Shown here piece after piece: positions 13,545 to 59,360 of a DNA stretch of 64,000 nucleotides. The stretch comes from an uncultured bacterium (lineage in GTDB: Bacteria; Bacillota; Clostridia; Lachnospirales; Lachnospiraceae). Under the pieces are notes generated by a model, which was not told the origin of the DNA, did no database searches, and saw only the letters and a list, made by a program, of their open reading frames with translations. The stretch lies in the NCBI GenBank assembly GCA_945949875.1, contig CAMFGH010000002.1, positions 36,968 to 100,967 of the forward strand, in the 5' to 3' direction. Position 1 is the stretch's first letter; every line of letters starts with the position of its first letter. A program made the position numbers and the translations under genes.

Positions 13545-13607
13545 TTACCCCAAAATTCCTCACCAAATGTTTTTTCATTTTTCATACAAAATATGTTCCA
13601 TATGGAT

Positions 13608-13613
13608 TATAAT
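13608..13613 (+). promoter_or_regulatory. Perfect -10 box TATAAT, possible leaderless start
   Basis: TATAAT lies 7 nt before the ATG at 13621, so transcription would start at or next to that A. No ribosome site precedes the ATG. The -35 region is weak (TACAAA at 13585-13590, 17-nt spacer). This suggests a leaderless mRNA, but could be chance in AT-rich sequence. Confidence 0.4.
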
Positions 13614-13620
13614 GTACAGT

Positions 13621-31804: not shown

Positions 31805-33364
31805 CTATGGTCGTACGACCAGACTATTCTTTCCGTAAAAGTCTGCCCACTCCCGGTTGTTCACAAATTCCGGATCCTCCAGGGCATCTGCGATGAATAC
31901 CAGATCAGGTTCTACGGTATAAGGCGCAAAGACCACATCAGAAATGGTTTCATCTTCCAGTTGTGCCAGGCGTTCCTTGTATTCCAGATCGTACTGTTTT
32001 GCTTCGCCTTTGATCCAGACCTTACATGCTGTAATAGTAGTTACATCCAGAAAACTGCCGGAAACTACCAGAATAAGAATCAACACCCCGATCATCATGG
32101 CGCACGCCTTTTGCAGTGCTTCTCCCAGTTGCTGTCTTAATGTAGTGCTTGCATCAGCCATCTTCCCTACGGATGTCTTTTCTTCAGATATTTTCTCCTC
32201 AAATATCACTTCCCACTTCCGATAAATCCAGCCTGTCAGATAGAACAACTGAATATAAGTCACCAAAAGGAACGCATCATATATGATATTGATAATTCTT
32301 CCCGGTCCTGTAGTCCCCAATGCATAAAAGGTAGGGCAGGACATGGCAGAGAAAATTCCATACAGGAAAAGAATCACGATTCCCGGATAAGCAAAAGAAA
32401 AAGTGGTTTTCCGAATAAGCTGTACCATCATAGGAAGCAGGCAAAGTGCCACCAAAAGCCACCACTTATCTGTCCAGGCTTCATAATATTTCACACCCTG
32501 AATCAGAGAATGGATAATCGAAGATACCGGGCCATAACCCCAGGTGCTCTCTGCACGCACAGCATTTCCCGGTGCCAGAGCACTGACTGCAAAACATGCC
32601 AGAAATTCCAGCCAGAGAATGGTAAGGGCAACTGCTCTTCTTTGATAAATTTTTCCTTTTTCGGCACTACATTTTTGATAAAGAAACGCTCCTGCAATGG
32701 CCATCCCTTGTAAAATAGCAAGGGTAAGAGCTGAAATATAATTTCCGCCTCCAAGGATAATCCCGAAAAGTGCCATATACACCACATATCTTTTTTTACC
32801 CAGGAACAAATATCGCAAAATCCATGCCAGATAGCACAACAGAAAACTGTGGAACGCATTATAATACACGGAGCTGTTATACCAGAAAAACTGTTCGGAA
32901 GCTACCGGCGAAAACTGTATGCAAAGCATTAAAACCAGCATGGAAATACTGATATAATGCAGGCTTTCTGTCTTCAATACTACTTTACAAAGAGTACGAA
33001 CAAAATAAAGTGTGCCAAGTGTTAAAAGTCCGATCATCAAATAGGGCACCACGGCATAGCATGCCTCTCCAAATACCGTAGGCTCCAGACGCATGAAGAA
33101 AAGCGCGGCGTAGCTACCCTGCCATCTGTAATAATCATCTTTCACCCCATCGATTGCAGCCTGTACAGCCTGTATAGGAGATCCTGTGCCGACCAGCATA
33201 TCATGAGCTGCCTTTCCATACAAAAAATCATCCGATGTTGGGTGATTAAACTGACCTAAATACAGGATTGGTATGATTTGCAGCACAAACAGTATTACAA
33301 GTACTGCTGCCAATTTTTTTTCATCTTTAATAAAATTCAATAAGTTTGTTTTTAGTTTCTTCAT
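31805..33364 (-). CDS. DUF6056-like polytopic membrane protein
   Basis: 519 aa from ATG 33364 (an in-frame TTG 9 nt upstream is less likely). A first-loop segment HPTSDDFLYGK followed by YRWQGSY, then GGGNYISAL, ALAPGNAVRAES and TGPGRIINIIYDA, all shared with the paralogue at 45683. About eleven membrane helices and a cytoplasmic or outer C-terminal tail of about 80 residues (IKGEAKQYDLEYKERL). The double-Asp first loop is typical of GT-C glycosyltransferases. I assign DUF6056 from memory of these motifs; substrate unknown. Confidence 0.78.
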   Translation of the reverse strand: MKKLKTNLLNFIKDEKKLAAVLVILFVLQIIPILYLGQFNHPTSDDFLYGKAAHDMLVGTGSPIQAVQAAIDGVKDDYYRWQGSYAALFFMRLEPTVFGEACYAVVPYLMIGLLTLGTLYFVRTLCKVVLKTESLHYISISMLVLMLCIQFSPVASEQFFWYNSSVYYNAFHSFLLCYLAWILRYLFLGKKRYVVYMALFGIILGGGNYISALTLAILQGMAIAGAFLYQKCSAEKGKIYQRRAVALTILWLEFLACFAVSALAPGNAVRAESTWGYGPVSSIIHSLIQGVKYYEAWTDKWWLLVALCLLPMMVQLIRKTTFSFAYPGIVILFLYGIFSAMSCPTFYALGTTGPGRIINIIYDAFLLVTYIQLFYLTGWIYRKWEVIFEEKISEEKTSVGKMADASTTLRQQLGEALQKACAMMIGVLILILVVSGSFLDVTTITACKVWIKGEAKQYDLEYKERLAQLEDETISDVVFAPYTVEPDLVFIADALEDPEFVNNREWADFYGKNSLVVRP

Positions 33365-33506
33365 ATTTACCAATTCTTTTATGTTTGCTGATTTCTTTAT
33401 ATTTGCTGATTTCTTTTATGAGAGCCAAATTCGTTATATTCGTCATTCTCTTTTTGGGTTGTCGTCTTGTTGTTTCTCCATTCTATAGTAGTTGACTCGT
33501 ATAAAA

Positions 33507-33525
33507 AAAACAAGAATCTTGTTTT
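33507..33525 (-). terminator. Terminator after the Avs-like gene
   Basis: AAAACAAGA and TCTTGTTTT pair around a minimal loop. On the minus strand the stem is followed by eight U residues. The stem is AT-rich, so of moderate strength. Confidence 0.55.
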
Positions 33526-33595
33526 CTATTTCTATCAAATCAGATGCCAAATTTTTAGATTACATAAAGTAGGCCATTGGCCAATCATGCTTTAC

Positions 33596-36500
33596 CTATT
33601 CAAAATCATCAATCATATCCGACAATGGTTTTATATCATGCAGATTACTTCTAAATAACTTGTCCCAAATGTCCAAGCATATCTCACGAACAAAAGGATC
33701 TTCTTTACCTTTATCGAACATGCAAACAATACATTTTACCAAGTCATTCACGATAAATCGATAGCCTCCTTCTGGTGGCATTTGGGAAATACTATTGCCA
33801 ATTGCATTTATGACACGAGCGAAACTACAGATATCTTTGTCACTTTCATAAAGATAGTCCAAAAAAGAATGAATGAGTTGTGCACCTTGATGCGATTCCA
33901 TTAGGTGGATCAGAAATTCTTCATCTCTCTCAATTGCAATGCGCTGATCAAAAAAAAGACGTTTGAACTCATACATTTCTTCTGATGAATGATCAATTAA
34001 ATACATCAGAACTATCTTACTCTTTTCATGATGCTCGTCTGAATCAAAAGAGGAAACAGCTTGTAAACAAATCTTTCCTTGCTGTTTATCGCTGAATTGA
34101 TGGGTCATAATAAAGTTTAATGCATCTTGGTCGTCATGATAAATTGCAACTGCGCACAGTAATCCAGCTGCATGTTCAGCCAAGTCGCTAATCTCTGACA
34201 AACACGCTTCTATCAATACCTCTCTATAATAGGTGCTATTGCTATCATATTCCCGAGACAAAATATCCCAAAACCCATGGGCTGATATAATACGTAAATC
34301 TGTTCTAATGAGCGAATTAAACACTTCTACTGCGAAATCTTTTTCAATATTGTAGTATGGTAAAGCGCAGCTCATAACCGCAAAGCGAACAGCATCATTG
34401 GGGTCATTACTCGCTGACAAGATTGTACTTTTGAACCTATCTCCCAAATTACAATGTTCCCAAAGTAAGGCCGCAATTGCATGGAGAGCACACCCACGTG
34501 CACAATTTATTGAGTTTTCCAGGAGCGAATGGGCAGATTTGTGTTTTGAATCTGAATTGCTTGTAATACTGTATTCGTCTTTAGATGGATGTGGGTGATT
34601 TAGTGCAATTTCCTCAATAATATTGATAATATCGTCCGTCCACACTTCATTTGCATGTTTTTTAATTATGCGTGAGACAGCAATTGCAATATCAGAATTG
34701 TTACTGTGTCCATAACGCCTAATAACTTTACTTACAAGTCCGACATCGAACTCATCTTTTTCGGTGTTATCATCAAAAGCATACAGAACACGAGAAACAT
34801 ACCCCTCATAACAATTTTCTGGAAATGACAGAGCTAATTTCGTAAACCTTAGTGGCTCGCGCTTGGCCTGTTTTCCGAGTGCGGATGCAAATGCCACATG
34901 ATTAGCTTCGACATGGTAGGCACCTTTATCAGAGCCACTCCATCTATCGCTCATTTTATCCTGTGGTGTAGAAATGATTTGAAGCCATGTCTTATCGCTC
35001 AAGCGCTCAGTATAATTCTCCACAGGAGAAACAACGAATTTAGCATCTCCAATAGTAAAGCCACTATAAAAGTATGGAAGTTGAATCCATGGGTTACGAT
35101 TTACAACATCCAGCAGCTGTTTTGAATATACTGATAACCGAGAAATATCCATGCTTTGCAAAAGTGCTTTTTGGAAATGCCCCCAATAAGCATAATATAC
35201 CGATGTGTGAATTGTTTCTCTTACTTCGCGACGCTCTCGAAAGATGTATAACATATGCTCAACCGGCTCTTTCCAAGCGCAGATGTATTGTTCTAACATT
35301 CGAAAAAGATTCAAATCACACAAGGAGGTGAATTTTTGCAAAAATTGTTTTGTATAAGACAAAAAATCATCTTCTCTTACAGAAAATACAAATATTTTGT
35401 TGTCGATATCGGTCAAAAGCCATTCTATTGCTTCGTCTGCATAGCTAATAGGTAGATTTAGAATGGCATGCATAATACATTCATGTCCCACTGCAGATAT
35501 TGGGTAATTTAGCCTCTTTACAAAAGTAATTAACTTATCAGGAGTTGTTTGTGCACATTCTGCAAAAGAATCTTTTACGATTTCGGTGATTGATCGAACA
35601 GCCGACTCGTGATAGCCATTTGATGTCCAATCCTGGTAGTCATTATTCCACCATGAATGTGGCCATCGTGGAAGATAATTAGCTGTTATTGCACAAATTT
35701 GAGGAAACAATTTAGTTACTATTTGCCATGCATATTGTTTAGCATAGCGAGTCATATTATCGGCATCACTGATGTAAATATTTGAAATCTTATTGCTTGG
35801 CCAGCTTTCTATAAGTACCTCGAATAAATCTATGGCTCTTGCGGATAGCCGCTTAATTAGCTCGTGGAATCCTAAAAAATTGTGAAACAGTGTCGGGTTT
35901 TTTTGTAAAAGCCGAACCCGAAGTTTAAACATATTATCAGAATCATCATTTGCATCATGACATAATGTCCAAAATATTTTGCGATCTTGTTCAGGATTCT
36001 TCAATGAAAAAGGTAGTAATCTGTCAGTTACAAAGTCAGATTGTTTATAGTTGATAGATTTTAACAGTAACAGGATTGAATCAGAAGGAAAATTTCCACC
36101 TGAAAGAGATTTCAATCTCATGATAAAGGATGGATGACCATAAAACACAACCTGCGTGATGTAATCTGACCACTCTGGTTTTTGAATATATTCGTCGATG
36201 ATTTGATAAATTTCGGATGCAGGAGTCTCACATTGACTAATTATCTCAAAAACTGCACATTTGAAATAAAAACGAACAGAAGACGACTCTAATAGTTCAC
36301 TGCTCTGCTTGGCAAATAGAACAGAGTCACTTTCCAGTAGATTTTGGAGAACCGTCAACAAACGATATCTAATAAGCGGTGTTTGATCACTTCTATCTCC
36401 AATTAAATCTTTGAGTTCATAGCCTGAATAGATTTTCTTTAAAATGTCTGCTGTTATGAAATAGTCTAAAAAACTCTGATGCGTAAAAGAAATACTTTTC

Positions 36501-38152
36501 GTATCTGAATTGTAATTCAATAGGCCCAACGAAACCAAAAGATCAATTTCGTTTGCTTGGTCTATGAAAATAGCTTGTGGGAGTGAAAAAATCGCCCTAC
36601 TTTCCATTGACATAACTATTTTATTTTTACAGGAAACGACATCTTTGGATTGTAAACCAGCCGAAATACACTTTTGCTGAATCTGCTGCCACCATGTATC
36701 CATTAGTTCAAAGACTGATGAAATGCTGTTTTTCTGTGTGTCTTCTTCGAGTTTGGACCAGACAAATAATGAAGATGGAGTTAGCAGTAATTTTTGGAGA
36801 CGAGATGTGAGGCAGTCATATTTTTGACCTATAATTTGAATAACCTCATCCTTGGTAAAATGATCCATATTCACCTTGACCCACCTCAAAACAGATGGGG
36901 ATTTCGAGGGTGCAAACAGTTCTTTTAATCCTTTATCATTCTCCAAATCAAAAGTGCGAGATGCGAATATAATCGATATTTTCCCTTTCGAATATTTGTT
37001 GATTGCTTCTGCCTGTAGAATGAGTTCTTTACAAACATCCAAGGCATCTCTGGAATGATTGCTTGTCCAACGCAAAGCGTCAAGCTGATCCATAATCAAA
37101 ACACACGGTTTGCCTGCTGATAGGGTAGCCAAACAATAAACTGGAGATTCTGGGAGTCCAAGCTCTTCGCCATAAGCATCTGCAGATTTATGGGGCAGGT
37201 GTTTGTCAAGTTTTACTGAAAGGTAAAGAATTCCTTTTTTCTTTAAGTATAAAATAATTTCTTCCAGGCACCCACTTTTCCCGGTTCCAGCTTTTCCGTG
37301 AAGAACAACCGAACGTTCCTCTTTGATGCACTCAACAATACTATCCGTTGACGTGCGATGTATAAGCGTTTCATGGATAGCATGATAAGAATCCCAATGG
37401 GTGTTATTGAGAACGGAAATTCTATTTAAGACTGTTCTATCGCTGTGATAATTTCGAACATGGATATCTTTGGCTTCTAAGTAATCTATGACGTCTTTTG
37501 CAGTTATTTTTACTCCATAACAGGCGGTATCATTGGCATACTGTTCAAGCAGAACTCGAACAATAGATGCCTTACCCGTGAATACCATGCCGATGTATTC
37601 ATTTAATTCCTGGTCAGCTTCCGTTCCTGTAATATATTGCTCAAAATAACAATGTGATAATATATAAACAGCTTGTTCAACATCTAAAGGAGTGCTTATA
37701 TCAAGCCCAAATTCTGCTACACAGTCATTAAACATACTCCTTATGTTAGTATTGGTTAACTGATAAGTCACAAAATCCGCAGGCGATGAATTAGTTCGAG
37801 CACGCTTGCATAATTCATCCAATTCGTTATACTGCAGGGGTGAAATAAAGTAATATAAGTTTTTGATATCAGCAGCAATGATCTCTTTGGCCCGTTGAAA
37901 GACTTTGTATTTTCTTAGGTCCGAAATGCTCCATGAAGAATGAGTGGTATTACTAGCCTTGCACTGATAGTGCTTAACAGTCCCATCTTTTTGTTCAGAA
38001 ATAAATTCCACAGAGTTACTATTTTCGCCTAATGGCTCAACTGTAACCGAAGTGAGTTCCTCTTTGACAAGCCTTAGAAGAAGTTTTGCAAGGTAACTAT
38101 TCTCGTAATTGTTTCCGTATTTATCAGATCTTCCACCAGGTTCAAGACTCAT
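33596..38152 (-). CDS. Avs-like STAND NTPase with N-terminal nuclease-like domain (putative antiphage protein)
   Basis: 1518 aa from ATG 38152, chosen because GGAGG lies 8 nt upstream; the ATG at 38167 overlaps that site. Residues ~5-150 resemble a PD-(D/E)xK nuclease of the Cap4/Mrr sort: GGRSDKYGNNYENSYLAKLL, then VEFIS-EQKDG-VKHYQCK with the E and QxK. Walker A is LHGKAGTGKSG (near residue 290), Walker B CVLIMDQLDAL (near 355), followed by IIFASRTFDL as a sensor. The remaining ~1000 residues are alpha-helical repeats, the usual target-sensing part of STAND proteins. Avs proteins detect phage proteins, oligomerise and cut DNA. No partner gene is evident. The gene is visibly AT-richer than its neighbours, suggesting transfer. 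Confidence 0.75.
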   Translation of the reverse strand: MSLEPGGRSDKYGNNYENSYLAKLLLRLVKEELTSVTVEPLGENSNSVEFISEQKDGTVKHYQCKASNTTHSSWSISDLRKYKVFQRAKEIIAADIKNLYYFISPLQYNELDELCKRARTNSSPADFVTYQLTNTNIRSMFNDCVAEFGLDISTPLDVEQAVYILSHCYFEQYITGTEADQELNEYIGMVFTGKASIVRVLLEQYANDTACYGVKITAKDVIDYLEAKDIHVRNYHSDRTVLNRISVLNNTHWDSYHAIHETLIHRTSTDSIVECIKEERSVVLHGKAGTGKSGCLEEIILYLKKKGILYLSVKLDKHLPHKSADAYGEELGLPESPVYCLATLSAGKPCVLIMDQLDALRWTSNHSRDALDVCKELILQAEAINKYSKGKISIIFASRTFDLENDKGLKELFAPSKSPSVLRWVKVNMDHFTKDEVIQIIGQKYDCLTSRLQKLLLTPSSLFVWSKLEEDTQKNSISSVFELMDTWWQQIQQKCISAGLQSKDVVSCKNKIVMSMESRAIFSLPQAIFIDQANEIDLLVSLGLLNYNSDTKSISFTHQSFLDYFITADILKKIYSGYELKDLIGDRSDQTPLIRYRLLTVLQNLLESDSVLFAKQSSELLESSSVRFYFKCAVFEIISQCETPASEIYQIIDEYIQKPEWSDYITQVVFYGHPSFIMRLKSLSGGNFPSDSILLLLKSINYKQSDFVTDRLLPFSLKNPEQDRKIFWTLCHDANDDSDNMFKLRVRLLQKNPTLFHNFLGFHELIKRLSARAIDLFEVLIESWPSNKISNIYISDADNMTRYAKQYAWQIVTKLFPQICAITANYLPRWPHSWWNNDYQDWTSNGYHESAVRSITEIVKDSFAECAQTTPDKLITFVKRLNYPISAVGHECIMHAILNLPISYADEAIEWLLTDIDNKIFVFSVREDDFLSYTKQFLQKFTSLCDLNLFRMLEQYICAWKEPVEHMLYIFRERREVRETIHTSVYYAYWGHFQKALLQSMDISRLSVYSKQLLDVVNRNPWIQLPYFYSGFTIGDAKFVVSPVENYTERLSDKTWLQIISTPQDKMSDRWSGSDKGAYHVEANHVAFASALGKQAKREPLRFTKLALSFPENCYEGYVSRVLYAFDDNTEKDEFDVGLVSKVIRRYGHSNNSDIAIAVSRIIKKHANEVWTDDIINIIEEIALNHPHPSKDEYSITSNSDSKHKSAHSLLENSINCARGCALHAIAALLWEHCNLGDRFKSTILSASNDPNDAVRFAVMSCALPYYNIEKDFAVEVFNSLIRTDLRIISAHGFWDILSREYDSNSTYYREVLIEACLSEISDLAEHAAGLLCAVAIYHDDQDALNFIMTHQFSDKQQGKICLQAVSSFDSDEHHEKSKIVLMYLIDHSSEEMYEFKRLFFDQRIAIERDEEFLIHLMESHQGAQLIHSFLDYLYESDKDICSFARVINAIGNSISQMPPEGGYRFIVNDLVKCIVCMFDKGKEDPFVREICLDIWDKLFRSNLHDIKPLSDMIDDFE

Positions 38153-38199
38153 GGCATAGTCCTCCATTATCTGTAGCTTTGATGTTCATGCAGACAGTT

Positions 38200-38290
38200 T
38201 TCATATATATTTCTTGCGGCATATCAAAATAGCATCTGATTGTTTCCAGATATATATGTCTATTATACTGCGACTTTAGTTTCTTTGCAT
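38200..38290 (-). promoter_or_regulatory. Candidate promoters for the Avs-like gene
   Basis: Two options on the minus strand: a perfect TATAAT (38262-38267) with ATGCAA 17 nt before it (38285-38290), and TTGATA (38222-38227) with TATGAA (38200-38205) 16 nt later. The rest of the 38168-38425 spacer is AT-rich, with no gene that I can support. Confidence 0.4.
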
Positions 38291-38425
38291 ACCATATGAT
38301 TGTTGCCATCGTCGTAAGCTTCTCTTTTCTATTCCAAAAGATATAGAAAAAAATCCGGCAATATCATATACTAACCATATGGCAAAGATATAAAAGCAAT
38401 ATACAGGAAAGTAAGAACAATCACT

Positions 38426-40252
38426 ATGACAGCAAATAACAAAAAAACAACTTTATATATGATTTCAGGCCTTCTAATAGCCTCTCTGGCTATGATTCCG
38501 TACTTGATTCTGGGCACCGGCAGTATCGTCACCTATCATGATCAGCTGGATGGAGAGCTTTTCAGCTATCTGCTGACTGCCAAATATCTCTTTACCGATG
38601 TCAAAATCTATCCGGAATTGCTAAATGGGCTTCCTGCTAATGGTGCTGTTCCACCTGCACCTTTGTTTGTGCTATTCTACAAATTCTTTGCACCCTTTAC
38701 TGCATTTATGTTGTCCCAGTGGTTTATCAATCTCATTGGTTTTCTTGGAATGTTTCTTCTGCTTCATAAACTGGTGGGAACAAATCTGATTTCCTTTGGC
38801 ATTTCTGTTATTTTTATGCTCATGCCCTTTTATCCGGTATATGGTCTTTGTATTCCGGGGCAGCCACTTCTGGTTTATGCAGTTCTTCAATTATATGAAT
38901 TGGAACGCAGACATTTTTCAGGTACCCGCTTACAGAAAGCCGGCTTTATCCTCCTGATCATCCTATACGGTTTATCCTCCTCACTGGTACTGGTGGGCTT
39001 TGCCTGGCTTATGGTTCTGGGCATTTTTGCGCTTTATCTGACCATACGGAATAAACGCACAGGGCAAAAGATTCCTTCTACGCCATGGATTTCTTTCTTA
39101 GTTCTGCTTGCCACCTATTTACTGACCAACCTTTCTCTGATAAAACAGGTTTTATTTCCTTCCACAGGCTATGTCAGCCATAAAACAGAGATGCTTATTT
39201 CTCCGCAGGATATATTCAGCAGCATAAAGGATTGTTTTCTGCATGGCATATCCTATGCCATGTCTTATCACGATATCATTCTTTTGCTGGGCATTTTTCT
39301 GCTTGTCCTTTTAGTGATACGAAAAGAGTTGAAAAGACACCAAATTATACTCAAACTTTTTTCCGCGATTCTTCTCATTTGTCTGTTTTACGGGCTCTAT
39401 CTCGGTCCACAGATGACTACGCTTAGAAATAGCGTCGGCGGCGTACTCAAAGAATTTAATCTGGGAAGAATCGCATGGCTTCTTCCGCTTTTTTGGTGCG
39501 TGCTGGGTGCTTATCTGATTAAATATCTATTTGAGGCTATTTCTGCACCAACCAAAACCTCCGACAGTTTTTCCGGTTCTTCAAACATGTTAACCAATGA
39601 CATTTCTTCCAAAATGCAGGAAAAGCGCTGCACTCCTATCAGAATGTTATTCGCCACCCTGCTCGTATATGCGATATTAGGAATCTGGGGAATCTCTGTG
39701 CTTCTTCACTCTTCCCTGCGTCCGAATCTATCCAAGTTAGTAAAGGGTGACACCTATTACGCACTGGACTGGGATCGTTTTTTTGCAGAAGATATTTTCG
39801 AGCAGATTGATCAGGCCATCGGAAAACCCAAAGATACCTATCATGTGGTCAGTGTGGGGATTTATCCGGCTGCAGCCGCTTATCATGGCTTCTATTGTCT
39901 GGATGGATACTCCAACAATTACCCGCTGGAATACAAACACACCTTCCGTGAAGTCATGGCAGGTGAACTGGAAAAAAGTGATTATGTTCGTGATTTTTAT
40001 GATAACTGGGGGAACCGATGCTATATCACCACAGCAGAACAGGCAAATTATTATACCTTTGAAAAGAAATGGAACAGCGTCATCTACGATCTGGACCTGA
40101 ATATTGAAAAGCTGAAAGAACTGGACTGCCGGTATATCTTTTCCGCTGCTTATATTATGAATGCAGAAGAAATGGGGCTCTCCCTGCTACAGGATGCCCC
40201 CTTTGAAACCGAAAACAGCTGGTATCATATTTATGTATATGTTGTACCATAG
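38426..40252 (+). CDS. DUF6044-like polytopic membrane protein
   Basis: 608 aa on the plus strand. After a first helix the loop reads VTYHDQLDGELFSYLL, then NGLPANGAVPPAPLF, and about ten further helices with a C-terminal extracytoplasmic domain of about 150 residues that is rich in aromatic residues (YHGFYCLDGYSNNYP). The acidic first loop again suggests a GT-C-like active site. I recall this opening from DUF6044 membrane proteins of surface-polysaccharide loci; that name is from memory. It is divergent from the Avs-like gene and convergent with the acyltransferase at 40371. Ribosome site weak. Confidence 0.77.
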   Translation: MTANNKKTTLYMISGLLIASLAMIPYLILGTGSIVTYHDQLDGELFSYLLTAKYLFTDVKIYPELLNGLPANGAVPPAPLFVLFYKFFAPFTAFMLSQWFINLIGFLGMFLLLHKLVGTNLISFGISVIFMLMPFYPVYGLCIPGQPLLVYAVLQLYELERRHFSGTRLQKAGFILLIILYGLSSSLVLVGFAWLMVLGIFALYLTIRNKRTGQKIPSTPWISFLVLLATYLLTNLSLIKQVLFPSTGYVSHKTEMLISPQDIFSSIKDCFLHGISYAMSYHDIILLLGIFLLVLLVIRKELKRHQIILKLFSAILLICLFYGLYLGPQMTTLRNSVGGVLKEFNLGRIAWLLPLFWCVLGAYLIKYLFEAISAPTKTSDSFSGSSNMLTNDISSKMQEKRCTPIRMLFATLLVYAILGIWGISVLLHSSLRPNLSKLVKGDTYYALDWDRFFAEDIFEQIDQAIGKPKDTYHVVSVGIYPAAAAYHGFYCLDGYSNNYPLEYKHTFREVMAGELEKSDYVRDFYDNWGNRCYITTAEQANYYTFEKKWNSVIYDLDLNIEKLKELDCRYIFSAAYIMNAEEMGLSLLQDAPFETENSWYHIYVYVVP

Positions 40253-48555: not shown

Positions 48556-49167
48556 TTATGAAGGATTTACATCCGAATAGGATGCACTATATCCTTTTTC
48601 ATTTTTGTTTGCTGCTATTTTTCCTCTTTCTACAGCATCCCTCAGCACATCCAGATCAGGCATGATATGATCTTCCGCTACCAGTTCACCACGCTGTTCA
48701 CACATCTCGAAATTCTCCAGAATGCTCCGTGCTACTGTTACCCGTGATTTCATATCACAGTGCAGATGTGCCACTATCATCTGAAGTACTGCAGTGGGTG
48801 AACTTCCATGATCTGCATGGAAAAGGAAAAGCAGAGCTCTCATTTGCTCCTCTGAAAGACTTTCCAGCAAAACTTTCAGTGCTTCTGCTATTCTTTCACC
48901 AGAATCAGAGGCCTGTAAATCAGAAAACTCTTTTGGGAAAACATATTCCAGATAGTATGGGATAGGATTGATTTTAAGCACACGAAACCATTCCGTAGTC
49001 TGGAAAAAATCGGGACATGATTTTCCCATTTCCCAATTCTGTATCGTTCTTCTTGACACATCCAGCTCAGCAGCCATCTTCTCCTGTGAAACCGTGGTCT
49101 TCTGTCTTGATTTTGTAAAGATACGTGTGAATCTTTCTAACCGTTCTTTTCTCGATTCCTTATCCAT
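48556..49167 (-). CDS. XRE-family transcriptional regulator
   Basis: 203 aa from ATG 49167. The longer start at 49221 would lie upstream of the predicted -10 at 49204-49209, so the shorter form is preferred. A helix-turn-helix of XRE type is in the first 60 residues: TVSQEKMAAELDVSRRTIQNWEMGKSCPDF. The C-terminal two thirds are helical (PIPYYLEYVFPKEFSD...) with no recognised domain and may sense a ligand or dimerise. It is divergent from the small ORF at 49369, so it may control it and itself. Confidence 0.88.
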   Translation of the reverse strand: MDKESRKERLERFTRIFTKSRQKTTVSQEKMAAELDVSRRTIQNWEMGKSCPDFFQTTEWFRVLKINPIPYYLEYVFPKEFSDLQASDSGERIAEALKVLLESLSEEQMRALLFLFHADHGSSPTAVLQMIVAHLHCDMKSRVTVARSILENFEMCEQRGELVAEDHIMPDLDVLRDAVERGKIAANKNEKGYSASYSDVNPS

Positions 49168-49203
49168 ATTTTTTACCCCAATTCCAAATATTCCCGAAAT
49201 AAA

Positions 49204-49232
49204 TTTTACCATATTGCACAAATATATTCAAT
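49204..49232 (-). promoter_or_regulatory. Promoter of the XRE gene
   Basis: Minus-strand TTGAAT (49227-49232), 17-nt spacer, TAAAAT (49204-49209). The predicted leader is about 30 nt to the ATG at 49167. Confidence 0.6.
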
Positions 49233-49314
49233 GTAAAACTTGTTTTCACATCTGAATGCGCAAAATAATACGCATAAAATACTGAAAATTTGTATCACTT
49301 CGTATGCAGACGAA

Positions 49315-49343
49315 TTGTGTTTTTTCGAATATACTGACAATAT
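49315..49343 (+). promoter_or_regulatory. Promoter of the 35-codon ORF
   Basis: TTGTGT (49315-49320), 17-nt spacer, CAATAT (49338-49343). Just upstream are short inverted motifs (tcgtatgcagacga) that could be an XRE operator. The predicted leader is about 20 nt and contains the strong ribosome site. Confidence 0.5.
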
Positions 49344-49368
49344 CAAAAGAAAGAGGAGGGACAACACT

Positions 49369-49476
49369 ATGATTAGATTTTTAGCTCAATTATATAAAAA
49401 ATATTCTAGTAAAAGGCACTCCTACAAAATGTACTGTAAGTATTTTGAAAATGGTTTTGATGATGCCAGACGTTAG
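49369..49476 (+). CDS. Small basic peptide of 35 aa
   Basis: The ATG at 49369 is preceded at 8 nt by GAGGAGGG, one of the strongest ribosome sites in the window. The peptide is basic and Tyr-rich (MIRFLAQLYKKYSSKRHSYK at the start, ending in DDARR), with no signal peptide and no match I recognise. It has its own promoter candidate, a divergent XRE regulator and a terminator downstream, so it looks like a real small gene rather than noise. Options are a toxin-like or regulatory peptide, or a leader peptide for the structured RNA after it. Confidence 0.6.
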   Translation: MIRFLAQLYKKYSSKRHSYKMYCKYFENGFDDARR

Positions 49477-49500
49477 TTTTGGCATTCCAATAACACATCC

Positions 49501-49562
49501 GGATAAATCCTGCACAGTGTAAAAGGGGATTGTGTCAAGGGGGAGAATATAAGGATTTATCC
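49501..49562 (+). other. Possible structured RNA region
   Basis: GGATAAATCC (49501-49510) and GGATTTATCC (49553-49562) can pair over 10 bp, enclosing TGCACA/TGTGTCA and purine-rich AAAAGGGGA and AAGGGGGAGA stretches. It lies between the small ORF and its terminator. It may be part of an untranslated RNA or a regulator target. Confidence 0.4.
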
Positions 49563-49567
49563 AAAAC

Positions 49568-49612
49568 AAGAAGCTTTTATCCTTCCTATGTGGGGTTAAA
49601 GCTTCTTTTTCT
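49568..49612 (+). terminator. Terminator after the 35-codon ORF
   Basis: AAGAAGCTTT (49568-49577) pairs with AAAGCTTCTT (49598-49607), followed by TTTCTTTTC. Confidence 0.75.
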
Positions 49613-49741
49613 TTTCTATCCATCCCCTTTATATTACTATGATATTTTATTTCTAATTAATAACACTCCTAAAATAAAAGCAATCATTCCAAGCCATTGA
49701 TATTATCTAAATAGTTTGAAATGTATAATTCAGATATGTGT

Positions 49742-50314
49742 TCACATTTTCTTTCTATCTTCTAAGATTTTTATCTTTCCGAGAACCACTAAAAAGCCTG
49801 TATCATATATAGCTACAGCAATAGGAACAAGTATTTTTTTTGTCCATATTGAACTAAAAATAGCAAAAAAACATAAGGTAATTAAAATTCTAATCACCTT
49901 ATTGTGGTAATCCCTTTTTTCATCTAGCGACAATGGTTTATTCTTTGCTTCTACAGGTGCCATAATTCCTATCGCAATAGCAAACAAAACCATAATCCAT
50001 GTATAATCAAGTATAATATTTTCAAATCTTCTAATACCTGTCAGAGAGGCAATAGTAATAATAGCAGAACTTATTTCACACCGAAATTTTGTTTTCGAGT
50101 GATATCCTCCTCCATATGTTCTTAGTAATATAAAAGAAAACTGAAACACCATGCTCTCTACAACAATCCCCAAGAGACTACCAATTATAAACGTAAATAT
50201 TACATCCAATAATGTGGCAACTATTCTTTTTATACCATAGTTTAATATTACAGTATCTGTTTCAGACAAACTGTTGTTTTGAGCAATGGCATTTAAGATT
50301 TTCCCTTTATTCAT
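49742..50314 (-). CDS. agrB: AgrB-like accessory gene regulator protease/exporter
   Basis: 190 aa integral membrane cysteine protease that removes the C-terminal tail of AgrD and forms the thiolactone of the autoinducing peptide. The catalytic pair is H72 and C79 in LLRTYGGGYHSKTKFRC, with the seven-residue spacing of staphylococcal AgrB (H77/C84). Several membrane helices follow. Length is typical. Its ATG overlaps the last 8 nt of the AgrD gene, giving tight coupling of protease and substrate. It is the last gene of the agr group in transcription order. Confidence 0.93.
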   Translation of the reverse strand: MNKGKILNAIAQNNSLSETDTVILNYGIKRIVATLLDVIFTFIIGSLLGIVVESMVFQFSFILLRTYGGGYHSKTKFRCEISSAIITIASLTGIRRFENIILDYTWIMVLFAIAIGIMAPVEAKNKPLSLDEKRDYHNKVIRILITLCFFAIFSSIWTKKILVPIAVAIYDTGFLVVLGKIKILEDRKKM

Positions 50315-50453
50315 ATTTCTTTAAGGCAGAAAGTTCATCTGGAAGTTCTTCCTGATAAAGCTTATAAAAGCAAGCAGAGTTCACTGCAGTTGTAGCCACC
50401 AGCATGGACAAACAGAAAATGCCTTTATAAAGTATTTTCATCATTTTCTTCAT
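50307..50453 (-). CDS. agrD: AgrD-like cyclic autoinducer pro-peptide, 48 aa
   Basis: The reading frame starts at ATG 50453 with AAGGAGGG 8 nt upstream. The N-terminus is an amphipathic leader (MKKMMKILYKGIFCLSMLVA); then TTAVNSACFYKL, and the acidic tail YQEELPDELSALKKYE. Aligned with staphylococcal AgrD (core CDFIM, tail DEVEVPKEL), the core is CFYKL and the tail YQEELPDEL with the conserved P-x-E-L. The predicted signal is a five-residue thiolactone ring from Cys28 to Leu32, with a short N-terminal extension (for example NSA). The exact N-terminus cannot be read from the sequence. Confidence 0.9.
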   Translation of the reverse strand: MKKMMKILYKGIFCLSMLVATTAVNSACFYKLYQEELPDELSALKKYE

Positions 50454-50482
50454 ATACAACCCTCCTTTTTTCAAATTTTAAC

Positions 50483-50514
50483 ATTTTATGTGTGGAACGG
50501 TACCTATTTGTAAA
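50483..50514 (-). promoter_or_regulatory. Candidate agrDB promoter
   Basis: Minus-strand TTTACA (50509-50514) and TAAAAT (50483-50488) are 20 nt apart, longer than ideal, as is usual for promoters that need AgrA-type activation. An 11-bp palindrome ACCATTATGGT lies just upstream (50522-50532). Confidence 0.4.
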
Positions 50515-50550
50515 AAAAAGCACCATTATGGTAATTTTTGGTTATAATAC

Positions 50551-50576
50551 AAAAAGCAGTGACTTTTCACTGCTTT
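50551..50576 (-). terminator. Terminator between agrC-like and agrD-like genes
   Basis: AAAGCAGTGA and TCACTGCTTT pair perfectly over 10 bp with a 4-nt loop; on the minus strand a U-run follows. It implies that agrDB has its own promoter, with some read-through possible. Confidence 0.75.
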
Positions 50577-50599
50577 CATTTTCTCCAAACATGTTTTCT

Positions 50600-51853
50600 C
50601 TAAATATTCAAATATATAAATAAATTCACCTCAAATACGTCTTCTGTATAATCAATAAGCATTTTTCCTCCATACTTCTCAACCGTTCTTTTCACGCTGA
50701 GTAACCCTACTCCATGCTCAAATTGTTTTTCTTTTGTTGTTAACAAAACATTATCATTCTCTCGTAAAATACCATCATAATCATTTACTATTTTAACTTT
50801 CATTATGCCCCGATCATATTGCAAAGTCAGTTCAATTCTTTTCCTTTCACTTTTTTGAATGGCTTCGTATGCATTTAGCAAAAGATTACTGAGTATTATG
50901 TTTATATCATAATCATTCACAGGCAAAGATTGAGGAATTCTTATATCTGTAATTAAGTTTCCTCCTATTTTTCCAACAGCATCCATCATATAATTAAGTA
51001 TACTATCTATGCATTCATTTCCAGTATCTACATATAGTTTCCCAGCAACAGAATAACTGTTTATCTTACCTATGTATTCTAATGCCTTTTCTTTTTCATC
51101 TTTTTCAATATAAGTAGACAGTAACATAATATGATGTTTCATATCATGTCTCAATGTTTTATATGTATCATTTGCATTTTGCAGTATCTTAAGCTGATTA
51201 CGATACATTGTCAGTTGTAATCCATACATTTCTTTCTCTTTCTCTTTAACATAATCATTCATCAATTTATCGTATAAATAAAATATGATTATATTGATAA
51301 AAAGCAAAACACATAAAGCACCAACCAATAATATATTGTTATTATAGGTTCCTTCAATCATTACATTCGCAATAAACATGCTTCCTGCCGAAATCAGAAC
51401 AAGCATTAGATCTTTTTTAAACGAAAGCTCTATTCCCCGACGAAACATAACAGTTTTCTCAATTAGCATTTCTAGAATAAAAAAGATAAAGACTGAAAAG
51501 AAAAATCCTATTTCTGCCATCTGAACATCCTTATCTTTTACAAAAATGACCCATGCAACATTCTCTGTCAATAGAGCAAGTCCACAAACAGCAATTAAAG
51601 ATAGCACTTTTCTTTGAAAACTCCCTTTATATCCTGTAAAAATAACAAGAAATAAACCACCTATACTAATCAGAATATTTATAATATCAGAATTGTGACA
51701 CAAATATTCTACGCTGTTTATCAGGAAGTATACGACATATTCAAATAAAACATACTTATTTTTTTGGTATTCTTCAAAGAAAAGACTGACAAAACGATAC
51801 AAAAGATAGGTTCTGAGAGCATTTAATATCAGATAGGAACTTATTTCCAGCAT
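50600..51853 (-). CDS. agrC: AgrC-like sensor histidine kinase (GHKL type)
   Basis: 417 aa. The N-terminal ~200 residues hold six or so membrane helices, the sensor for the peptide signal. The dimerisation helix carries the phospho-acceptor H236 in LRHDMKHHIMLL, and the GHKL ATPase has the N-box ILSNLLLNAYEAIQ and the G-box HGVGLLSVKRTVEKYGG. This is the AgrC/ComD type of quorum-sensing kinase, and it lies directly downstream of its LytTR regulator (1-nt gap), in the reverse of the staphylococcal order. Confidence 0.92.
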   Translation of the reverse strand: MLEISSYLILNALRTYLLYRFVSLFFEEYQKNKYVLFEYVVYFLINSVEYLCHNSDIINILISIGGLFLVIFTGYKGSFQRKVLSLIAVCGLALLTENVAWVIFVKDKDVQMAEIGFFFSVFIFFILEMLIEKTVMFRRGIELSFKKDLMLVLISAGSMFIANVMIEGTYNNNILLVGALCVLLFINIIIFYLYDKLMNDYVKEKEKEMYGLQLTMYRNQLKILQNANDTYKTLRHDMKHHIMLLSTYIEKDEKEKALEYIGKINSYSVAGKLYVDTGNECIDSILNYMMDAVGKIGGNLITDIRIPQSLPVNDYDINIILSNLLLNAYEAIQKSERKRIELTLQYDRGIMKVKIVNDYDGILRENDNVLLTTKEKQFEHGVGLLSVKRTVEKYGGKMLIDYTEDVFEVNLFIYLNI

Positions 51854-51854
51854 A

Positions 51855-52574
51855 CTATACTTCTCCCTGTGCTGCTATTTTTCTCTTGATTTCCTTTTTA
51901 TATGTGTTACTTATATGGATCACCTGATCATTGCACATGACTATTTCATTCTCTTTATATGCTTTTACATACTGTGTATTAATAATAAACGAATTATGTA
52001 CTGTCCAAAAGTGTTTAGAATGAATAGCTTTACGAATATCTTTTATATTACCATAAAAATATATTCTTTCTTTTGGAGTCACAATACATTTCTTTCTTCC
52101 CAGACATTCAAAATACATAATTTCTGATGAAAGAATCTTTTCCGTACTTTTTCCGATTTTATATTCGAAATATTCCTGCTGCCTTACAAATAATCGTATA
52201 TACTTTTCAAAGATTTTTATAACAGCATTTTCATTAACTGGCTTTAACAGAAAGTCAAAAGGTCTAATCTGAAATAACTGCATTGCATATTGCTCATAAG
52301 CAGAAATAAATACAATCTGAACTTTTTCGTTCTCCAGTTTTTCCCTCAGCAGTTTTCCCACCTTAACGCCAGTCATTCCTGGAAGCTTAATATCCAAAAA
52401 AATCAAGTCAACATTTTTCTGACTATTATTTTCCATATATTGTATCAGACTTTCTCCCGAATAAAACTGCTCTATATGAATATCTTCTTCTCTTTTCTCT
52501 GCGTATCTCTTAAATGCCTGCTCAATTTGATTACAAACATCTAGCTCGTCATCGCATATTAAAATACGAAACAT
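51855..52574 (-). CDS. agrA: AgrA-like LytTR response regulator
   Basis: 239 aa from ATG 52574, where GGGTGAT (matching the extended anti-16S sequence) lies upstream and the receiver begins at once (MFRILICDDE). Starts at 52586 and 52595 are also in frame. The receiver has acidic D9-D10, the phospho-acceptor D61 in LIFLDIKLPG and a conserved lysine (LLKPVN). The C-terminal LytTR domain (about 135-235) ends with FWTVHNSFIINTQYV. It should bind the direct repeats upstream of agr promoters and other target genes. Confidence 0.93.
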   Translation of the reverse strand: MFRILICDDELDVCNQIEQAFKRYAEKREEDIHIEQFYSGESLIQYMENNSQKNVDLIFLDIKLPGMTGVKVGKLLREKLENEKVQIVFISAYEQYAMQLFQIRPFDFLLKPVNENAVIKIFEKYIRLFVRQQEYFEYKIGKSTEKILSSEIMYFECLGRKKCIVTPKERIYFYGNIKDIRKAIHSKHFWTVHNSFIINTQYVKAYKENEIVMCNDQVIHISNTYKKEIKRKIAAQGEV

Positions 52575-52597
52575 TCTATCACCCATTAACACCATAT

Positions 52598-53275
52598 TTA
52601 TTCAAGAATGCTGAAGCAATCTTGTATTAGACCATACACTTCTTTTCTTGTACTTTTCTCCAAAAGTTCTATCATATAACACAGTTCACTTATTAAGAGG
52701 TTTTTCTCTTTCAAAATCACAAAAAATGGAATACTGAACGTAGTATGCATTTTCAAGATTATCTCACTATCAGGTAACGTTATACCCTTTTCCATATCTC
52801 TTAATTTTTTTACATCTACTTCCAAAATCTCTGACATCTTCTTTTGATTATAATTCTTCATGCGACGTACCGAATATAATATATTATTTTGTCTATCTCT
52901 GGTTAATGCATATTGTTCCATACCCATTTTATCTGTCAGAACATCTTCGTAATAATATGCATCTTTCTTCCTGTGATACTCATTTGCATAACAGACAATT
53001 CTCATCAAAAATGTCAATTCATCATATGATTTTTCCTCTAATACTTTTTTGTATTTCCCCTCATATTCCGTTCCTGTAAGAATATAAAAAATATCAACCT
53101 CCGTATCACATAAACACTGCATCTCAAAATACGTAAATCTTCTCGTTCCCAGTTCGGCCTTACTATAATGACTTTGACTCATTTTCAGTTTTCGTCCCAT
53201 CTGCATCTGCGACAAGTTCTTGTTTATTCGCTCTTTTTTAAGCCTCTCTAAAAATTCCTGATATGCCATGTTCAT
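52598..53275 (-). CDS. XRE-family regulator, first gene of the agr operon
   Basis: 225 aa from ATG 53275 (longer start at 53314 and shorter at 53269 possible). It seems to contain two helix-turn-helix regions: KNLSQMQMGRKLKMSQSHYSKAE near the N-terminus and YNQKKMSEILEVDVKKLRDMEKG in the second half. Between and after them are helical regions. A regulator of this kind upstream of agr genes suggests control of quorum-sensing onset, or a second output. The stop is 23 nt from the LytTR start. The promoter is likely just downstream of the 53416 hairpin. Confidence 0.87.
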   Translation of the reverse strand: MNMAYQEFLERLKKERINKNLSQMQMGRKLKMSQSHYSKAELGTRRFTYFEMQCLCDTEVDIFYILTGTEYEGKYKKVLEEKSYDELTFLMRIVCYANEYHRKKDAYYYEDVLTDKMGMEQYALTRDRQNNILYSVRRMKNYNQKKMSEILEVDVKKLRDMEKGITLPDSEIILKMHTTFSIPFFVILKEKNLLISELCYMIELLEKSTRKEVYGLIQDCFSILE

Positions 53276-53406
53276 GGATAGTATACCCCATAATATGATT
53301 CCTATTTTACCCATTTTATGACATCAAATTTCCCCATTTCGCACCTTTTTAGTACTTTTAGAGAAAGTTTTGCACATCTTATAAAAGAAAACGAAAAAAT
53401 TTATGT

Positions 53407-53412
53407 ATTATA
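53407..53412 (-). promoter_or_regulatory. -10 box of the XRE-agr operon
   Basis: TATAAT on the minus strand, about 130 nt before the XRE start. The -35 position overlaps the upstream terminator hairpin and is weak (CTCAAA, 17-nt spacer), so an activator may be needed. Confidence 0.4.
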
Positions 53413-53415
53413 AAA

Positions 53416-53439
53416 GGAACTCAAAAGGATTTGAGTTCC
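53416..53439 (-). terminator. Terminator after the Cys-rich kinase gene
   Basis: GGAACTCAAA and TTTGAGTTCC pair perfectly over 10 bp around AGGA; TTTTATAAT follows on the minus strand. Confidence 0.7.
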
Positions 53440-53491
53440 TAAAGAATTTGAGTTTCTTTCCATTTGAAACTGCATAATAAATTTGTGCCTA

Positions 53492-54577
53492 CTATTCATA
53501 GTGCCAAGCTGTTGGGAAAAATAATTCCACCTCGAATGGTCCATAGTCTATGCCTCGTATTCTCTTTGTTTTTCGGCTACTTATTCTCATTGTAATATTA
53601 TGAATATCCGCCAGATGTCGGCTTAAATATAGGCCTAAACCACTTCCTCTTGTAGTCTCCTTCTTCGCACTCTCTGTCCGATACCCTTTCTGTTCCAGAT
53701 GTCGCATTTCCTCTTCATTACAGTACGGACCCATAGAAGAAATCGTTACTCGTACTCCCTCTTCTGTATTCTCAAAAATCACTTTAACAGTTTCATTTTT
53801 AGGGGAATACTTTACTGCATTTTCAAACAACAGGAATGTCAAAACATCAAACGTGGGATATACCTCATAGGTAGAATGAGTATCTCCAATAAATTCAAAC
53901 GTAACATGTTTATTCATATAATCATTCATAATACATCTGCATTTATGAAATTTATTAAAGATATCTGCTTTATATGTTTTTCCCATTTGCAATATCATTG
54001 GATTAACAGAAACATCATATGCTAAAAATCTGGCTGTCATCATATGGGCCATAGCTTCAATATCTTTTACGAGGCGCATGTTATGCTCTAAATCAAAAGA
54101 GAGGTCATTTTCAGAACGTCTACTATAGTTATTGTTCACTTCTTCCGCACGACTTTGTAACTGAGTACTGAGGTTTCTTATCTCATGTAGCAGATCTTTA
54201 TTCAATTCATCTTGTTTTAAAATCTCATCCTCTTTTTGGCATACTTCCACATAAATATCAACTATATTTTCAAATGTCATTTTATCAAGAAGGGGATTGT
54301 ATACTATTTCATTTTCCTTTTTTTGTCTAAACACTCCTTTAGACGATATATCCTTTATTTTGAAACATGTAAATATAAACTTATGCCCATCAACACTCTT
54401 TACATATGAGGTCATTCCATAAGGACAATTATAATACCCATTTTCTGCACTCGCTAATTTTCGATAAAATTCTGCGCATCTTCCACAAGAAGCATTTTTT
54501 AGGCAATATTGATATGGCTGAATCAAAAATCCTTTCTTGAAATTGGAGCCTTCAATCATACTGATAAAGCGTTTCAT
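53492..54577 (-). CDS. Soluble histidine kinase with Cys-rich N-terminus
   Basis: 361 aa with no membrane helix. The N-terminal ~100 residues carry a cysteine set C25-x5-C31-x2-C34-x16-C51 (CLKNASCGRCAEFYR, YYNCPYGMTSY) and C71, which could bind a metal or Fe-S cluster, or form a PocR-like sensor (inference). H131 in LLHEIRNLSTQLQ is the likely phospho-acceptor; the ATPase has LLFENAVKYSP (N-box) and GSGLGLYLSRHLAD (G-box). It starts within TAATG at the end of the receiver gene, so the two are a cognate pair. It may sense redox state or a small ligand in the cytoplasm. Confidence 0.85.
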   Translation of the reverse strand: MKRFISMIEGSNFKKGFLIQPYQYCLKNASCGRCAEFYRKLASAENGYYNCPYGMTSYVKSVDGHKFIFTCFKIKDISSKGVFRQKKENEIVYNPLLDKMTFENIVDIYVEVCQKEDEILKQDELNKDLLHEIRNLSTQLQSRAEEVNNNYSRRSENDLSFDLEHNMRLVKDIEAMAHMMTARFLAYDVSVNPMILQMGKTYKADIFNKFHKCRCIMNDYMNKHVTFEFIGDTHSTYEVYPTFDVLTFLLFENAVKYSPKNETVKVIFENTEEGVRVTISSMGPYCNEEEMRHLEQKGYRTESAKKETTRGSGLGLYLSRHLADIHNITMRISSRKTKRIRGIDYGPFEVELFFPTAWHYE

Positions 54578-55260
54578 TACAGTGCTCCTCCCAGAAAAAA
54601 TTTCACTGCTGCTGACCCTAATACCTGTGCCATCACGCTTTTCACAACATCGGCTCCTTGCTTTGCCATTTTTTCCAGCGGTTTTCTATCTTTCTCTTTA
54701 AAACTGCGAACATACTCACTTTCAAGACGCGCTGTTTCAATTGTACTCACGTCGTTCTTGAGGAGTTTTTCCCTAACCAGTTTCCATTGGTGAACCGGAT
54801 TAACTATTTTATCAATCTCATCATCCAAAATTGCTATCCAGTCTTCTAATGAAGTTCCTTTTGGAATCACATTATCTGCCTCTGCTAAATATGTATTATA
54901 GGAAGCATCATATTGGCTTGCCGTGTATGCAATAACATGCTTGTTTGGATAATTTTTCTTTATTTCTTTGATGATAAATGCACCTTCGAAAGCTTCGCTA
55001 AATCGCTTTCCCACTCCACGAATATCGCATAAGATAATTTCATATGGCTCCACATCTTTAATATTATCGATATCCTGTTTGTGGTACATACTAAAATTAC
55101 TATCTTTTAATCCCTGGCTGACATTAAGTTCTTCATCATCAATAATCAGTATATCCATATTTTTTCGTAAATACATGCGCTGATCTTGATTAATCATGCA
55201 ATCACTTGCTAATTCTCCAATTGTATATTTTATATCATAGAATCTCCCTAATAGTTTCAT
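54577..55260 (-). CDS. Receiver-domain protein without DNA-binding output
   Basis: 227 aa from ATG 55260, which has AGGAG 6 nt upstream (the ATG at 55266 touches that site). After a 35-residue extension of unknown role comes a receiver: D41-D42 in DILIIDDEE, the phospho-acceptor D79 in EIILCDIRG, T114 in AYTAS and K134 in VIPKGTSLEDW. The remaining ~75 residues are helical with a charged middle and end in a hydrophobic glycine-rich tail (VLGSAAVKFFLGGAL). No DNA-binding domain is present, so the output may be protein-protein, perhaps at the membrane. Confidence 0.82.
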   Translation of the reverse strand: MKLLGRFYDIKYTIGELASDCMINQDQRMYLRKNMDILIIDDEELNVSQGLKDSNFSMYHKQDIDNIKDVEPYEIILCDIRGVGKRFSEAFEGAFIIKEIKKNYPNKHVIAYTASQYDASYNTYLAEADNVIPKGTSLEDWIAILDDEIDKIVNPVHQWKLVREKLLKNDVSTIETARLESEYVRSFKEKDRKPLEKMAKQGADVVKSVMAQVLGSAAVKFFLGGAL

Positions 55261-55373
55261 TTGCATCTCCTGAAGTATTTTTTATCATACCATTTTGTTT
55301 CATTTGTCTTTTAAATATTGCATGCTAAAATCATGACAATATTATACATCTTATAGCGTAACAGTTATATAAA

Positions 55374-55463
55374 TTATTCAGAAATTTCCTTTTCTTTTCC
55401 TTCAATTAAGATATCAATTATTTCCTTGTAATCTTTATAAAAGTTTACTTTTCTCCTTGTCAT
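55374..55463 (-). CDS. Small ORF of 29 aa coupled to the SGNH gene
   Basis: The ATG overlaps the stop of the SGNH gene as ATGA, a hallmark of translational coupling. The peptide is highly charged (MTRRKVNFYKDYKEIIDILI, then Glu/Lys-rich). No match is recognised. It may be a real small gene, the start of a decayed longer gene, or chance. Confidence 0.4.
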   Translation of the reverse strand: MTRRKVNFYKDYKEIIDILIEGKEKEISE

Positions 55464-57001: not shown

Positions 57002-57010
57002 ATGCTTTTA

Positions 57011-58570: not shown

Positions 58571-58571
58571 A

Positions 58572-58814
58572 TTACTTTCCCATCTCCATTATGATATCAA
58601 CCATTTCCCCTACATTCTTCATGGTTACGACTTTTCCCATGGGAATTTTAAAACCAAATTCTTCTTCTACCCCTACAATCAGATTAATGTGTTCAAAAGA
58701 ATCCCATCCGTCCACATCATCTGCTACCGTTTCATCATGAAGTTCGATAGATTCATCATCCAACACCTCTCTGAATACGTTGTTTAATCTTTCATACACT
58801 TCTTCTCTTGTCAT
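58572..58814 (-). CDS. Acyl carrier protein
   Basis: 80 aa with four-helix ACP pattern. The phosphopantetheine site is S39 in VDGWDSFEHINLIV. It is acidic, as usual. The ribosome site AGGAGAAAG is good. It is separated from MBOAT by 1 nt and from the MaoC-like gene by 117 nt, where a small hairpin (GATTCGT/ACGAATC) lies. It probably carries the short acyl group made by the upstream enzymes and hands it to the MBOAT protein. Confidence 0.93.
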   Translation of the reverse strand: MTREEVYERLNNVFREVLDDESIELHDETVADDVDGWDSFEHINLIVGVEEEFGFKIPMGKVVTMKNVGEMVDIIMEMGK

Positions 58815-58931
58815 TTTTCTTTCTCCTAATATACTATTTCTATTATTACTTTTTGTTATACTGATATATCTTTTCTAACGATTCGTCCCCAGTTTAACGA
58901 ATCTATCTTATCACGAAACGCATCTCAATAT

Positions 58932-59360
58932 CTACCTCATAACCATCACTTTCATTTTTGCTCTGGACACCGTTTTCTGGTTCTGGTTTTTTATCACAAC
59001 CTTCAACCGAATAAGCCCCAGCGCCTCATTTTTATCGATTACTTCCCCTTCCACAGTCAGTTCATCTCCGGCAAAAACCGGTTTCAAAAAAGACAGTTCA
59101 TCAAAACTATGTATCAGACTATACTTCCCCGGCAGATACATTCCTGCCATGGTAGAGTATAAAGAAGCAGTAAGCATACCAAAGGAAACATGGCCTGGGA
59201 ATTTGCCTTCCCCAATTTCCTGTGCAAATACATCATCCTGATGCAGCGGATTTTCATCCCCTGAAATGGTCCGAAATGCATCCTCCATTTCTTTCGTTAT
59301 GGTTCGTTTAAAGGAGGCTTTTAACCCAGGCTCTATTTCAGAAAGCACAAACTCATTCAT
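58932..59360 (-). CDS. MaoC-like hotdog hydratase/dehydratase
   Basis: 142 aa single hotdog domain. The hydratase-2 motif is intact: SGDENPLHQDDVFA with D35 and H40 as the catalytic pair, and the later GDELTVEGEV is also typical. Members hydrate enoyl-thioesters or remove water from 3-hydroxyacyl-thioesters. It directly abuts the C-terminal transketolase gene (start codon next to its stop). A role on an ACP-bound intermediate is likely from context. Confidence 0.9.
   Translation of the reverse strand: MNEFVLSEIEPGLKASFKRTITKEMEDAFRTISGDENPLHQDDVFAQEIGEGKFPGHVSFGMLTASLYSTMAGMYLPGKYSLIHSFDELSFLKPVFAGDELTVEGEVIDKNEALGLIRLKVVIKNQNQKTVSRAKMKVMVMR

Follow-up and report, generated by a model that had tools for sequence, protein, structure and literature searches.

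The closest characterised architectures to the protein described here are those of Avs3 and Avs4 (AVAST types 3 and 4), in which an N-terminal PD-(D/E)xK nuclease, a central STAND NTPase and a long C-terminal helical-repeat sensor are encoded in one gene. The sensor of the Avs proteins is TPR-like, and effector swapping is typical of STAND immune proteins. Other described systems share single parts of this layout. Cap4, the effector nuclease of CBASS, has a similar nuclease fold fused to a SAVED cyclic-nucleotide sensor, instead of the STAND NTPase and solenoid considered here. Avs5 carries a STAND domain next to a SIR2 effector and a shorter sensor. Finally, the animal receptors NLRP3, NLRP9 and NLRC4, together with the bacterial bNACHT proteins, have the NACHT fold with its winged helix, but our protein bears a HEAT/ARM-like sensor instead of an LRR one, and a predicted nuclease where a CARD or PYD would stand. 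Avs1-4 respond to terminase, portal or a further phage protein, whereupon their nuclease effectors cleave phage and host genomes (PMC12931631).

Here we analyse a gene found in a stretch of 64,000 nucleotides (hereafter, the window) from an uncultured bacterium of the Lachnospiraceae. We consider it likely that this gene on its own encodes an Avs/NLR-type immune receptor with a STAND domain, a putative phage sensor with a DNA-cutting effector.

Domain layout and expression signals

Counted from its first ATG, the open reading frame runs over 1523 codons (33596..38167, minus strand). We set the start at the ATG at 38152 because the N-termini of the homologues align there, and the likely protein has 1518 aa, the same length proposed by a first-pass annotation made from the DNA letters. 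The features of the gene are the following:

33596..38152, minus strand: whole gene, predicted nuclease-STAND-HEAT protein of 1518 aa, ATG at 38152, with a further in-frame ATG at 38167
37703..38152, minus strand: predicted N-terminal PD-(D/E)xK nuclease domain, residues 1-150 (conservation, model topology, Cap4 matches); key residues by conservation E17, E39, E49 (D in most relatives) and Q63-C64-K65
37373..37702, minus strand: helical linker, residues 151-260 (model; lowest conservation within the N-terminal half)
36353..37372, minus strand: STAND/NACHT NTPase and winged-helix region, residues 261-600 (profile matches, conservation, model, fold matches)
37274..37297, minus strand: Walker A GKAGTGKS, residues 286-293 (alignment)
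37079..37102, minus strand: Walker B VLIMDQLD, residues 351-358 (alignment)
33599..36352, minus strand: residues 601-1518, a HEAT/ARM-like solenoid at the C-terminus that presumably acts as the sensor (structure model matches)
33503..33528, minus strand: terminator-like hairpin and U-run, 3' of the gene (fold MFE -24.3, z -2.8 for a stretch of 106 nt)

The STAND nature of the protein, already proposed in the first-pass annotation, is borne out by the two Walker motifs and by a further one, FTHQSFLDYF at residues 556-565, all of them near-invariant in the alignment of relatives. Its nuclease-like N-terminus was likewise recognised correctly; it carries the motifs GGR.DK.GN.YE, E39, E49 and QCK at 63-65. 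The same annotation gave the gene its own promoter and terminator. The perfect stem of the hairpin and its U-run speak for the terminator, despite a consensus terminator scan that returned zero matches and missed it, whereas the promoter found no such support: a promoter scan gave none above chance, and only a TATAAT-like hexamer occurs near 38264-38269 on the minus strand.

Fold and relation to described families

Searched as a single sequence, the protein drew weak Pfam matches confined to the P-loop (AAA_16, AAA, nSTAND3), and no Pfam NACHT model passed its cut-off (for PF05729, 12.5 bits against 26.7, E 0.14). The Cap4 nuclease model was absent from the profile matches of the protein, NCBIfam gave nothing useful and PHROGs no match. 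An ATP-cone match in Pfam, a UvrB match in NCBIfam and PDB matches to BPTF and myoglobin were set aside as chance.

The AlphaFold2 model of residues 1-680, built on 57 sequences (pLDDT 89, pTM 0.82), was compared with the PDB by Foldseek, which placed Avs3 first (8dgc, E 7.7e-14) and Avs4 second (8dgf, 2.9e-12), followed by NLRC4, EfAvs5 and Cap4. The TM-scores to Avs3/4 across the whole model are low (0.27) because the domains are positioned differently. Structural realignment gave a Z of 16.7 to Avs4 over residues 4-665 (rmsd 21.5, domains shifted) and of 14.8 to Avs3. For residues 235-680, Z values of 20-22 were obtained to NLRP9, NLRP3, NOD2 and NLRC4 (21-22 for the first two). Together with the Walker A and B motifs, a sensor residue, the winged-helix region and the invariant motifs, this NLR fold match places the central domain in the STAND/NACHT NTPase superfamily. 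Residues 1-150 adopt in the model an alpha-beta-beta-beta-alpha-beta topology and carry an E...(D/E)...QxK site, as in the Cap4-like PD-(D/E)xK enzymes, so that they form a predicted nuclease; the realignment gave a Z of 14.3 to Cap4 (7yib), and the K74A structure of Cap4 (7yia) is also among the matches.

The C-terminal part, modelled over residues 571-1518 (pLDDT 88.7), matches HEAT/ARM solenoids such as CAND2, importins, SF3b and the A subunit of PP2A (Z about 17), scores that for helical repeats indicate a kind of arrangement and not kinship. The sensor of about 1000 residues that was first proposed is indeed helical, but it is better described as a HEAT/ARM-like solenoid of about 920 residues. 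HEAT/ARM proteins stand at the top of the match list and Avs chains are absent among the matches listed, an absence that does not exclude an Avs3/Avs4 fold.

The protein thus has the nuclease-STAND-helical sensor architecture of Avs1-Avs4, but it differs from Avs3 and Avs4 in the HEAT/ARM matches of its solenoid and in having no sequence match to Avs models. The profile search suggested earlier against the Avs family gave no match in PADLOC, whose library we assume to contain Avs models, either for the window protein (E<=1) or for seven members of its family (E<=0.1), and the 8dgc and 8dgf chains gave no sequence match at E<=1. The first description of the gene as Avs-like therefore stands for architecture and fold, with Avs3 and Avs4 as top structural matches, and does not extend to membership of Avs1-Avs5 by sequence. 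A sequence match to Avs5 (9jap, E 9.4e-6) covers residues 251-310 only.

Two other entries lie nearer. The sole substantial PADLOC match is to PDC-M54A, a candidate that is still uncharacterised; it scores 62.7 bits and spans residues 263-596, numbered on the 1518-aa form. Each of the 7 members of our alignment A1 matches one of the PDC-M54A models. This label presumably denotes a multi-gene candidate, whereas the window gene stands alone; with the match confined to the NTPase and no constant neighbour among the relatives, we do not count the protein as a PDC-M54A member. The closest solved relative by sequence profile is a 1523-aa protein labelled “AAA family ATPase” (PDB 9n00/9n01/9yix), which matches over nuclease and STAND domains with an E of 8.5e-28. 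It is similar in length, has the QCK and HQ..LD motifs in common and shows a weak sensor match (E 0.053), but it is distant, and its own plasmid relatives are chiefly cyanobacterial. A literature search found no paper describing these structures. Structural work on a distant relative thus exists already, which makes the protein less novel. Judged by sequence, and assuming the presence of Avs models in the library, the protein is a separate family outside Avs1-Avs5, with PDC-M54A and PDB 9n00 as its nearest entries.

Insertion site and distribution of the family

The gene sits between membrane-protein genes of a glycan island, as noted from the start. Three features define the site:

31805..33373, minus strand: left flanking membrane-protein gene, which adjoins the right flanking gene in congeners
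38426..40252, plus strand: DUF6044 gene on the right flank; in congeners it and the left flanking gene are divergent
38211..38324, minus strand: fossil, lying upstream of the STAND gene, of a gene that occurs on RepA/ParA/ParB mobile elements (DNA and amino acid similarity)

In four congeners (G003, G004, G005 and G006) the two flanking genes are divergent and directly adjacent, with 133-179 bp separating them; in the window the STAND gene lies in between, and the distance is about 5 kb. These empty sites show an insertion, just as the first reading of the locus had supposed, and horizontal transfer is supported. In a fifth congener, G001, the same gap (locus L137, G001:C59:30900-35400) is filled by an unrelated insert of 3.5 kb with three genes, read from their translations as CotH-like, VTC-like and DUF4956-like, which indicates that the site takes varied cargo. 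The higher AT content reported for the gene was confirmed (the gene has 37.3% GC and its flanks 42.4-42.5%; for GC3 the values are 32% and 42-44%), and so was the lack of a partner gene at the locus.

Clean ends, on the other hand, were only half right. Terminal repeats and a duplicated target were looked for at the ends of the gene and none were found, so its borders are fixed only to within two short intergenic stretches, but one end does carry the mobile-element fossil. Its identity to MT838552.1, a contig bearing ParA-like, ParB and RepA_N genes, is 84.5% for DNA (97 bp) and 61% for protein (38 aa); to a further contig (G000:C115) of the genome to which the window belongs, it is 80%. The matched segments of both fall within intact open reading frames. 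The fossil is the best clue to the vehicle of transfer: the STAND gene was probably brought in as cargo, by a plasmid or integrative element of the RepA/ParAB type.

Elsewhere in the window, the region 49000-59000 is also AT-rich (29-39% GC against 42% in the surrounding glycan genes) and holds genes for a GHKL histidine kinase, a LytTR response regulator and an MBOAT acyltransferase. At 13474-16107 on the plus strand, among glycan genes of the minus strand, lies the gene for a CotH kinase protein that has a chitobiase C-terminal domain and a lamin-tail domain. No other defence gene was found among the checked genes of the glycan island.

The family is sparse and patchy. In whole-genome searches, homologues turned up in 11 of the 397 genomes sampled from the host's family and in 8 of the 398 from its phylum, its own genome counted, or about 2-3% of sampled genomes. 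A scan of GTDB contigs gave nothing with the single protein as query; an alignment query then confirmed 109 places, 80 of which were retained as loci. Members are mostly Bacillota, but also occur in Planctomycetota, Myxococcota, Thermodesulfobacteriota, Bdellovibrionota and one Pseudomonadota bin. In the tree, the Lachnospiraceae members spread over several clades, most of them apart from the window protein, which groups with members from Oscillospiraceae and Anaerovoracaceae (SH-aLRT 96 and 99). Phage records gave no protein match, and for the one match on a viral contig (L102), the same protein sequence is encoded at an isolate locus (L065).

Across 57 representative sequences, E17, Q63, C64, K65, the Walker A glycines with K292, D355, D358, R399 and H558-Q559 are invariant, and E39 almost so. 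Mean pairwise identity is 42% in the nuclease, 41% in the NTPase and 28-32% in the C-terminal part, the lower conservation expected of a sensor. Three relatives from Bacilli (L062, L093 and L101; Sporosarcina and Planococcus) keep the STAND domain and the sensor, and have the nuclease replaced by another N-terminal domain of about 190 residues that begins MSFLAYIAGTLIAPN; that of L093 was searched and has no Pfam or PHROG match. This exchange counts in favour of a STAND immune protein.

Among the 1115 neighbouring open reading frames of the relatives there is no constant partner gene. At E<=1e-15, 241 PADLOC models are matched by neighbours lying within 2.5 kb and 25 by those beyond 6.5 kb (141 proteins per set), a contrast that is not a formal test and is only suggestive, since models and not genes were counted and one methylase can match many. 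The near matches include type IV restriction enzymes, type II methylases, AbiD and RhuM-type candidates. The surroundings include serine recombinases at 11 loci and putative integrases at 7.

Frameshifts, stops or a deletion have disrupted several homologues (L079, L086, L091, L097 and G017:C25), in isolates and bins alike, which possibly reflects a cost of the gene, or sequencing error. In the record of Lactobacillus rogosae ATCC 27753, the homologue (L145, G016:C37:5500-24500, and L005/L072) is split between residues about 139/140 by an element of 17 kb, whose translations point to an apparent serine recombinase, relaxase-like and CHC2-type primase-like proteins, a two-component system and ABC transporter genes.

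Proposed function and alternatives

The fold matches, the invariant residues, the swapping of the N-terminal domain, the patchy distribution and scattered tree, the empty sites, the fossil, the low GC and the defence-like neighbours together favour an Avs/NLR-type receptor. By analogy with Avs and NLR biology, such a protein would be kept inactive by its C-terminal HEAT/ARM solenoid (residues about 600-1518) until the latter binds a conserved protein of a phage or mobile element. The NACHT-like NTPase would then bind ATP and oligomerise, clustering the N-terminal Cap4-type PD-(D/E)xK domains, which would cut phage and host DNA and so stop the infection. The gene itself arrived horizontally and occupies the intergenic space between two divergent glycan genes. 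A more specific proposal, which we regard as possible but doubtful, is that these proteins make up a separate nuclease-STAND clade extending over several phyla, with a HEAT/ARM sensor that is triggered by a component of phages or mobile elements different from terminase and portal.

The alternative that survives best keeps the STAND nuclease and changes its target: as cargo of integrative elements, it would be aimed at incoming plasmids or conjugative elements and not at phage, in a competition between elements. The mobile-element fossil upstream of the gene, the recombinases and integrases often found near its relatives and the lack of any copy in the phage collection are all in line with such a role. 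Antiphage genes, however, are commonly mobile too, and Avs3 and Avs4 sense phage proteins, so we hold this target to be rather unlikely. Far less probably, the protein is a STAND ATPase with a regulatory role, in which a degenerate nuclease-like domain binds DNA without cutting it. This idea draws on the E49 of the window protein, where most relatives have D, and on QxK in place of ExK, but QxK is an active-site form in Cap4 and Mrr-type nucleases, E17, Q63 and K65 are invariant in the 57 sequences across phyla, and the E at position 49 is common to the whole clade of the window protein and is thus conserved rather than decayed. It is equally improbable that the gene is decayed cargo of a mobile element, nonfunctional in this strain, as the adjacent fossil and the broken state of several relatives (G016 by the 17-kb element, G017, L079, L091 and L097) might suggest, given that its frame of 1518 codons is uninterrupted, every motif is retained and a terminator-like hairpin follows the gene.

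Read as Avs/NLR-type receptors, these proteins, with more than 100 homologues now defined, add a coherent, mobile and uncatalogued branch to the bacterial NLR-like receptors. The empty and occupied alleles within one genus mark where such a receptor was acquired, the members with a swapped N-terminus offer natural material to test effector against sensor function, and the phage molecule read by the HEAT/ARM sensor becomes a directly testable question.
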